A DNA stretch of 64,000 nucleotides from Nitrososphaeria archaeon (GTDB lineage: Archaea; Thermoproteota; Nitrososphaeria; Conexivisphaerales; DTJL01), in the NCBI GenBank assembly GCA_029775965.1, contig JARVJU010000001.1, positions 62,001-126,000 of the forward strand. Reading direction: 5' to 3'. A model generated the notes under the pieces. That model saw only the letters and a list, made by a program, of their open reading frames with translations. It ran no database searches and was not told the DNA's origin. A program made the translations under genes and the position numbers. Positions within the stretch are counted from its first letter, which is position 1. Every line of letters starts with the position of its first letter. Positions 10,504-62,722 of the stretch are shown here, piece by piece.

Positions 10504-11190
10504 CTAGAGCTTCCAGAAGTCTCCCGTGAGCCCCAGAGACTCGAAGTGTGCCTGAAGCTTATCCTTGGAGGGCCTTGAGTAGTCTAGATTCATCTTTGTG
10601 CTGTAAATTGGAAGGCTCAGTTTGATCGTCTGTTCGGGGGTGAGTGCTTCTCCGCCGCTTATTCCGACCCTCGATTTCCATTCATCAAGATGCTTTTGAG
10701 AACTGAAAAAGACCATATTGTTGGAGCATGTGTTGACTATGTCCTCCCACCATTTGGAAGCCGGTAGGGCCAGGTAGACGATTGCGTCCCTGGGGCTTGA
10801 GGAGACTACTTGCCTGCTTCTGATGTGAATCCGTATTTCCTCTGCGCAGTGATGACAGTACGAATTTACCTCCTCTTCCTTGTCGAGGGTCAAGTGCATG
10901 GCTATGGAATCCCAGGCACAGTTGGCGTAGTACGTCTTGCCCCCCGCTGAGACCCGGAACGGCGTGACGACACCTGAGAAGGGGAATGCCATGAGTATTC
11001 TCTGAGTTCCCCTGACAAGAGCGACATGATGTGCATCCTGAAGCTTAAGAAGGGCTTCGTAAGCGGAGGCCCTGTCGAGACCGAATTTTCGCATTATCTG
11101 CTCGACAACTGGTGGAGTCGTATTTTCTGCGATATGGTCGAAGATATACTTCCTGACCTCCGATACAATAGCGTCGGTTAGCCCGGGCAC
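10504..11190 (-). CDS. Alkylmercury (organomercurial) lyase MerB-like protein
   Basis: AFPFSGVVTPFRVSAGGKTYYANCAWDSIAMHL...YCHHCAEEIRI...WWEDIVNTCSNNMVFFSSQKHLDEW. The CxxD and the later Cys before VFFSS match the MerB catalytic Cys/Asp/Cys arrangement; N-terminal wHTH-like region as in MerB. GTG start. Confidence 0.75.
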   Translation of the reverse strand: MPGLTDAIVSEVRKYIFDHIAENTTPPVVEQIMRKFGLDRASAYEALLKLQDAHHVALVRGTQRILMAFPFSGVVTPFRVSAGGKTYYANCAWDSIAMHLTLDKEEEVNSYCHHCAEEIRIHIRSRQVVSSSPRDAIVYLALPASKWWEDIVNTCSNNMVFFSSQKHLDEWKSRVGISGGEALTPEQTIKLSLPIYSTKMNLDYSRPSKDKLQAHFESLGLTGDFWKL

Positions 11191-11212
11191 GTCTATAATT
11201 CACACCGACTCG

Positions 11213-11223
11213 ATATATATAAA
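11213..11223 (-). promoter_or_regulatory. Putative archaeal TATA box for the MerB-like gene
   Basis: Minus-strand tttatatatat about 25-35 nt upstream of the GTG start; a short or absent leader is implied. Confidence 0.5.
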
Positions 11224-11261
11224 GATTGAGAGTTGCCTGAGGGTGCGGCTAGCACTCCGTC

Positions 11262-11645
11262 TTAGGTGCCTATCTCGTCGGCGGCTTTGCTCGACCAACC
11301 TATGACTTGAGAACCCTTTGGCATTAACTCGTAACGCTTCCGTTCGCCTTCAGCGATAAGCCTGATGAGACCCCTTCCAACGAGATGTCCCAGCAGGTCT
11401 TGGCAGACGGACCAAGAGAGGTTCGCCCTGTACATGATTCGAGTAGGCCTCTCGGGGCCTTCCTTGACAGCCTCGAGTATGTCGAGCATCATTTCCTTTC
11501 TTGACCTCTTACGATAAAGCCTCTGCATGGGTTTCAGGACGCTCGAGAAGAAACATACAGAGGAGATTGTCCTCCAAAACGCCAGATTCGTCTCTCCGAT
11601 CGGAGACAAGCTCGGGACGATGATTGGGCAGGCCGATGCCTTCAT
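11262..11645 (-). CDS. Archaeal winged-HTH regulator; true start probably near 11530
   Basis: RKRSRKEMMLDILEAVKEGPERPTRIMYRANLSWSVCQDLLGHLVGRGLIRLIAEGERKRYELMPKG is a wHTH; the N-terminal ~35 residues of the ORF look non-coding. Confidence 0.7.
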   Translation of the reverse strand: MKASACPIIVPSLSPIGETNLAFWRTISSVCFFSSVLKPMQRLYRKRSRKEMMLDILEAVKEGPERPTRIMYRANLSWSVCQDLLGHLVGRGLIRLIAEGERKRYELMPKGSQVIGWSSKAADEIGT

Positions 11646-12004: not shown

Positions 12005-12027
12005 GCGGCCCACTAGCAAATGATTGT
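12005..12027. repeat. Right arm of 23-bp inverted repeat, abutting the tRNA-Ile 3' end
   Basis: gcggcccactagcaaatgattgt, inverted match to 10382-10404. Confidence 0.75.
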
Positions 12028-12118
12028 GGGCCGGGGGAGATTTGAACTCCTGACCTCGTGATTATCAGTCACGCGCTTTGGTCATTTTATACTTCTAACC
12101 ATGCTGAGCTACCGGCCC
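12027..12118 (-). tRNA. tRNA-Ile(GAU) with a 17-nt intron in the D-arm (12077-12093)
   Basis: Removing AGUAUAAAAUGACCAAA gives GGGCCGG UA GCUC AGCAUGGUUA GAGC G CGUGA CUGAUAA UCACG AGGUC AGGAG UUCAAAU CUCCC CCGGCCC A (75 nt cloverleaf). UGGUUA/UGACCA pairing forms a BHB-like motif around the splice sites. Confidence 0.9.
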
Positions 12119-12307
12119 CGACTCCCACCTTGAATAAAGTAAGTATAAGACTTTTATCAAACACTGAGGTGCATCTTTCGTTTAGAAAAATTTTCTATTC
12201 AAATAGCAATAGTCAGCATGCTTAACTGTAAATTTTAGCTGCAGCTTTTGCAATACGAAAGGCTATCAAAACAACTTTTTTAGAGGCATATACAGTCGGT
12301 GTGCCAA

Positions 12308-12380
12308 GGGCCGGTAGTTCAGTGGTAGTAACGTCCGCTTTGCAGGCGGAAGGTCCGGGGTTCAAATCCCCGCCGGTCCA
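12308..12380 (+). tRNA. tRNA-Ala(UGC)
   Basis: Acceptor GGGCCGG/CCGGUCC with G3:U70; anticodon arm UCCGC UUUGCAG GCGGA; T-arm CGGGG UUCAAAU CCCCG; discriminator A. Confidence 0.93.
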
Positions 12381-12761
12381 CTTCTATTCTGTATTAGATA
12401 GGACAGCATATGAACCATTTCGTAGCTATGATACATTTTTTATAGTTTGGGGGCATAGAAGCTTCATCCATTTCGCCACAGTATTACCTCTTCCAGCAAA
12501 GCATGCACCTGTGAAAACTTTCTGTCAAAGGTGCAGTAAGGGATATGGCACGATATTTTTTGTGACAAATTGCATTTGCAACAGGTATGAACAGAAGAGC
12601 TGGTTTATCAAATTACCGAATGCTTCATCAATCTGTCCATTTACTCAATAATAGTGAGAAGCTACAGACTGAGATATGCAAAAGATGTCACAGTGCTTCC
12701 ATAGAAGTCAAGTCAAGTAAAGTAATATAGCAGACAGAAGAGGCTGCCCAGAGAATCAATA

Positions 12762-61896: not shown

Positions 61897-62722
61897 GGAT
61901 GCTGAATAGTGTATTTTTCATAACCTCTAGCGGTGCATCTTTGCCTGTAAATATCCTGAAAGATTCAATTGCCTGGTAAAGGAGCATTTCATAGCCGAAG
62001 ATAATTTCTGCACCAGCTGCTCTAGCTTTGATTATCAATTTAGTATTCACAGGTCTGTATACTGCATCAAAAAAGATATCACAATTCGTCACCAGATCTT
62101 CAATCTTTTTCGGTGTTTCTGCCTTTACTGAGCCTATAGGTGTTGCATTAAAAGCCAGGTCAAATCTACCCAGTCTGGAGGCATCTACCTTTTCAAGGCT
62201 TTCTATATCCAGACTTAATCTGTCAAAAAAGACATAATCCGATAATTCCCTTGCCTTTGCTGGATCTCTTGCTATTATGACCACTTCCCTTGCTCCAAAA
62301 TTGTATGCCACATGGATAAATGACCTTGCCACACCCCCATTTCCTACAATCAGAACTCTATCCAACATTCTGTCAGCTAGGTGTAGCTTAAGGCATTCTG
62401 AAGCTCCTGTTACATCTGTGTTGAACCCAATCAGTTTATTTCCTGACCTTTTTACAGTGTTCACAGACCCTGTGATTTTTGCGTTGTCATCCAGTTCCGC
62501 TAGAAAGCCAAGAATAGCAACCTTGAATGGCATAGTTACGTTAAACCCATCGTATCCTGAGCTTCTGTTGATAGCATCCTGTATATCACTGCAGTTTTCT
62601 AATGCATACTTTGCATCAATAGCTAAATGCTCAAAAGCAGAGTTCATCATTGCAGCTGTAGGGCTGTAGCTGACATCCTTACCTATAAGGCAGTACATTT
62701 TACCGTTCATCATAGGCCACAC
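61871..62722 (-). CDS. aroE: Shikimate dehydrogenase
   Basis: CLIGKDVSYSPTAAMMNSAF; GFNVTMPFKVAIL; VLIVGNGGVARSFIHVAYNFGAREVVIIARD. Confidence 0.94.
   Translation of the reverse strand: MWPMMNGKMYCLIGKDVSYSPTAAMMNSAFEHLAIDAKYALENCSDIQDAINRSSGYDGFNVTMPFKVAILGFLAELDDNAKITGSVNTVKRSGNKLIGFNTDVTGASECLKLHLADRMLDRVLIVGNGGVARSFIHVAYNFGAREVVIIARDPAKARELSDYVFFDRLSLDIESLEKVDASRLGRFDLAFNATPIGSVKAETPKKIEDLVTNCDIFFDAVYRPVNTKLIIKARAAGAEIIFGYEMLLYQAIESFRIFTGKDAPLEVMKNTLFSILGVDHYDR

Follow-up and report, generated by a model that had tools for sequence, protein, structure and literature searches.

The tRNA-Ile(GAU) locus

The window, i.e., the whole stretch of 64,000 nucleotides that was analysed (positions 62,001 to 126,000 of contig JARVJU010000001.1), belongs to an archaeal draft genome (G000; 1.74 Mb, 55 contigs, about 93% complete). 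A tRNA-Ile(GAU) gene with a 17-nt insert within the 3' strand of the D-stem was located on its minus strand, next to a divergent tRNA-Ala(UGC) gene (Table 1). From 12118 to 12027 the minus strand reads GGGCCGG UA GCUC AGCAUGGUUA G (AAGUAUAAAAUGACCAA) AGC G CGUGA CUGAUAA UCACG AGGUC AGGAG UUCAAAU CUCCC CCGGCCC A, the intron being given in parentheses. When the insert was taken out, a 75-nt cloverleaf with the anticodon GAU was restored; its acceptor stem has 7 bp, the D-stem 4 bp, the anticodon stem 5 bp and the T-stem 4 of 5 pairs (enumeration). The A49–C65 mismatch of the T-stem is found in the window gene, in G002 and G003 (same family, other genera) and at locus L104; the intronless orthologue L058 has G49. 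A TATA-like element, TTATAC (window 12143–12148, minus strand), was noticed by eye ca. 25–30 bases upstream of the 5' end of the tRNA-Ile gene; just beyond the tRNA pair, genes for a MerB-like alkylmercury lyase and for a winged-helix regulator are located (window 10504–11645, minus strand).

Table 1: Features of the tRNA-Ile(GAU) locus (window coordinates).
Feature	Position	Strand	Basis
tRNA-Ile(GAU) gene, G1 (12118) to A73 (12027)	12027..12118	-	read directly
Exon 1, positions 1–22: acceptor 5' strand, D-stem 5' strand, D-loop, G22	12095..12118	-	sequence and cut enumeration
Intron, 17 nt, AAGUAUAAAAUGACCAA, position 22/23	12078..12094	-	cut enumeration; homologous site in relatives
Exon 2, A23 to A73; anticodon 12066–12064 (read directly); CCA not encoded	12027..12077	-	sequence, Rfam tRNA model, enumeration
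Central BHB helix, exon strand GGUU (G18–U20a)	12097..12100	-	cut enumeration
Central BHB helix, intron strand GACC	12080..12083	-	cut enumeration
5' bulge AG^A, predicted cut between 12095 and 12094	12094..12096	-	cut enumeration
3' bulge AA^A, predicted cut between 12078 and 12077	12077..12079	-	cut enumeration
tRNA-Ala(UGC), divergent neighbour	12308..12381	+	ARAGORN and Rfam; divergent Ala/Ile pair also in G003

Detection: The unspliced tRNA-Ile gene scored 27.9 bits with the Rfam tRNA model, just below the gathering score of 29 bits (adjacent tRNA-Ala(UGC): 61.6 bits), and the locus was missed by ARAGORN with and without the anticodon-intron option; the earlier note had warned that callers lacking non-canonical intron handling may misscore this gene. 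Enumeration of cloverleaf plus strict bulge-helix-bulge (BHB) solutions over 26 tRNA candidates of the genome gave the 17-nt intron as the best solution for the locus. Application of ARAGORN to all deletions of 12–22 nt was uninformative, nearly any D-arm deletion being tolerated. The RNAfold minimum of the mature 75-mer is a non-cloverleaf and was not counted as evidence; unmodified tRNA sequences often fold in this way. A self-splicing group I or II intron was rejected: the insert has 17 nt, as against the hundreds of bases and the ribozyme core expected, and no Rfam match to such an intron was found within the window.

Copy number: One match to tRNA-Ile(GAU) was found in G000 (pattern from anticodon loop to T-loop, one mismatch allowed; genome about 93% complete), so that the intact second copy named in the earlier note as speaking against the intron did not turn up in this pattern search; nor did the same kind of search give a second tRNA-Ile(GAU) in any searched genome of the window family. 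In G001, the one same-genus genome, neither the tRNA-Ile(GAU) pattern nor the 411-bp region was matched, so that it could not enter the comparison; the negative result is uninformative since G001 is ca. 85% complete.

Relatives sharing the intron site

In G002 and G003 the exons are identical to those of the window gene, and 18-nt inserts (GGCCUAAUUGGCGGCCAA and AGCCAGUCUGGCGACUUG) occupy the same site; between G002 and L083 (Thaumarchaeota archaeon Centralia_MAG_53) neither the gene nor its flank differs. An 18-nt insert at 22/23, UGUUGCACAGACGGCCAG, is present at L104 (archaeon isolate YF1.bin6; sequence also in G396), and 20-nt inserts at 22/23 were found in G021 and G024 (another family of the class). 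The intronless orthologue of G026 (L058) corresponds to the expected spliced product apart from a few substitutions; across the splice site it reads GGTTGGAGCGCGTGACTGATAATCACGAGGTC, with one substitution against the spliced product in that stretch.

The insert sequences differ among the copies, and the 4-bp helix with the exon and the 3-nt bulges are kept in each. The exon strand is near-invariant (GGUU or GGUC), the intron strand is GACC, GGCC, GACU or GGCU, and pairing is possible in all copies: GGUU with GACC, GGCC or GACU; GGUC with GGCU. Conservation of the pairing is one-sided, because the exon strand barely varies while the intron strand does, and the six copies share ancestry and hence do not amount to six independent tests of pairing. 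The pattern scan of genome contigs was too loose, returning mostly bacterial tRNA-Ile genes, since the gap could be filled by a TGGT lying upstream of a tRNA that has no intron; the relevant matches are L083, L104 and L078 only.

Other tRNA-Ile(GAU) insertions: D-arm inserts in tRNA-Ile(GAU) of G151 (L191), G326 (L192) and G199 (L189) are apparently at other positions and were left out of the comparison. In other families of the order (L030, L032, L033, L034, L045, L046) the insertions of tRNA-Ile(GAU) are in the anticodon arm, not in the D-arm; it follows that this tRNA gained introns at several positions. G396 (another family; contigs C27 and C168, loci L190 and L202) carries one tRNA-Ile(GAU) like that of the window family, with the 22/23 intron, and a different one; the contig with the first of the two may be a contaminant.

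The splice motif and the probable cut position

Cuts were enumerated under the following settings: central helix of 4 bp, 3-nt bulges cut NN^N, D-stem of 3 bp or more. Only one cut was common to 6/6 sequences, that after nucleotide 24 (G22), and it always gave a 75-nt product with a 4-bp D-stem; being the sole strict-BHB cut that fits the window gene and the five relatives, it places the intron at 12078–12094 (22/23). The strict BHB form is realized in the window gene by GGUU/GACC (4 bp) and the two bulges AG^A and AA^A, and in the same form in the five relatives. The flanking helices (hBHBh') of the window gene are nearly absent (1 bp inner, 1 bp outer; inner helix of the relatives 3–4 bp), for which reason its motif is regarded as a relaxed BHB, a form that still belongs to the class when one or both of these helices are missing. 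When the 17 intron bases were shuffled, a 4-bp central helix appeared at the right place with a chance of 4.6%. The window locus taken alone is therefore suggestive; it is the comparison with relatives that makes the intron call secure.

The earlier note had read a 17-nt D-arm intron in tRNA-Ile(GAU), the removal of which yields a 75-nt cloverleaf, and this is confirmed by the sequence, the enumeration and the relatives. Its assignment to the archaeal BHB introns holds insofar as an EndA-type D-arm intron is well supported, with the reservation that the flanking helices of 1 bp each make the motif a relaxed one. It had also set the cut after A23 (intron 12077–12093); the likeliest cut is after G22, the one-base shift arising from the A that is repeated at both junctions, and the mature product is unchanged, as the cuts at 22/23 and 23/24 yield identical tRNAs in the window gene.

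Cutting of the same intron by EndA one base later, at 23/24, within a 6-bp UGGUUA/UGACCA helix between GAA and AAG bulges, is improbable. The helix is the longer one, with six pairs, and its chance on shuffling of the 17 intron bases is 0.5%; against this, a strict BHB has 4 bp in its central helix, the additional pairs are partly lost in the relatives, 22/23 fits 6/6 copies, and the tRNA of G002 would have G23 rather than A23 if cut at 23/24.

Splicing enzymes and other introns

EndA and RtcB: Two EndA-family genes, alpha (L027) and beta (L028), were found in G000. EndA alpha is closest to the enzymes of Aeropyrum pernix and other crenarchaea (E 1.7e-39 vs A. pernix EndA); the Tyr/His/Lys triad is kept, and in the Crenarchaea-specific loop a lysine stands opposite A. 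pernix K44 in the alignment (VEKPRG vs VPKPKG). EndA beta, the structural subunit, is without the catalytic His, and its gene overlaps that of the tRNA ligase, rtcB (RtcB: PF01139, E 3.4e-133). In (alpha-beta)2 enzymes, which are able to cut relaxed motifs and do not require the full hBHBh' form, the loop lysine is reported to account for the broad specificity (PMC6379350). As to the EndA subunit type, about which the earlier note had asked, the genome encodes at the sequence level a crenarchaeal-type alpha and beta pair with the loop lysine conserved, by which the enzyme is predicted to be of broad specificity. EndA-family genes were present in 20/20 genomes of the order searched, with two genes in 17/20; the three genomes with one EndA gene are incomplete assemblies (55–86%).

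Other introns: In tRNA-Arg(CCU) of the same genome (L004:1501–1594; G000:C3:13927–14020, minus strand), a 17-nt intron, AGATTAAAATCTGCGAA, was found in the D-loop; its BHB is strict and the inner helix has 4 bp. D-arm introns had been put forward as much the rarer kind; the position of the tRNA-Ile intron is indeed non-canonical, but the case is not an isolated one, given this tRNA-Arg(CCU) and the matching splicing enzymes encoded.

The locus L019:1501–1589 (G000:C53:32322–32410) is best read as tRNA-Phe(GAA) with a 13–15-nt intron near positions 23–26; the ARAGORN call for it, tRNA-Pyl(CTA), is likely a misreading.

Interpretation and comparison with known systems

The tRNA-Ile(GAU) gene is very probably functional, its short intron being of the EndA type, placed at the non-canonical site 22/23 and spliced by (alpha-beta)2 EndA and RtcB; transcription, cleavage and ligation are inferred. 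In the precursor, GGUU of the D-loop would pair with GACC of the intron, leaving two 3-nt bulges; the tRNA-splicing endonuclease, an (alpha-beta)2 heterotetramer, would cut AG^A and AA^A, freeing 17 nt, and RtcB would ligate G22 to A23. The product would be a normal tRNA of 75 nt, reading the codons AUC and AUU.

That the gene is decaying or a pseudogene, the insertion being random and a working tRNA-Ile(GAU) residing in the unassembled part, is very improbable. The incomplete genome with its 55 contigs, the A49–C65 mismatch and a tRNA model score just under the threshold might be taken in its favour; yet two other genera have the same exons, A–C mismatch included, and a changed intron, which argues for selection on the exons, the relatives carry an insert at the same site, and no second copy was found in any searched genome of the family. 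An assembly or sequencing artefact, conceivable in a draft of 55 contigs, is scarcely credible in view of comparable inserts at the same site in independently assembled genomes and of the pairing with the tRNA-Ala(UGC) gene, which is conserved in G003.

As a further step beyond the splicing of a functional gene, the 22/23 intron of tRNA-Ile(GAU) might be old and selectively kept, common to at least two families of the class, with the pairing maintained as the sequence changes; in the window species the inner helix would have been lost and cutting would depend on the lysine loop of EndA. This extended history is regarded as rather unlikely.

Known introns: Position 22/23 is among the non-canonical archaeal tRNA intron positions listed in a review, together with 20/21, 25/26 and others (PMC4090602); the window intron is of the same class, at the same 22/23 position and with BHB-type splice sites. 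That review stresses Crenarchaeota and Nanoarchaeota, whereas the present case is a tRNA-Ile(GAU) of an uncultured lineage, the relatives of which include a Thaumarchaeota archaeon record. D-arm introns, including one at 24/25 in tRNA-Thr(GGU), are described for Candidatus Caldiarchaeum subterraneum (PMC3293823), likewise a tRNA-intron-rich archaeon of ca. 1.7 Mb; its intron differs in the tRNA, in the position and in being linked to a mobile-element insertion (PMC3293823). With tRNAscan-SE 2.0, 673 noncanonical introns were counted in 217 archaeal genomes, and 107 in Thaumarchaeota (PMC8450103); the Thaumarchaeota introns modelled there are of the same kind as that of the window. To the (alpha-beta)2 EndA of A. 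pernix with its Crenarchaea-specific loop (PDB 3p1z, 3ajv), the alpha subunit of G000 is similar over nearly the whole length, the triad and the loop lysine being kept.

The window intron is a further example of the documented class of non-canonical archaeal tRNA introns, nothing out of the ordinary in this archaeal branch, and it fits the EndA-type class in all tested respects except the full flanking helices. Annotation is affected in that the genome will be listed as lacking tRNA-Ile(GAU) by a tool that does not handle non-canonical introns. The introns of 17–20 nt at one site are a natural series for the minimal flanking helix needed by a broad-specificity archaeal EndA.
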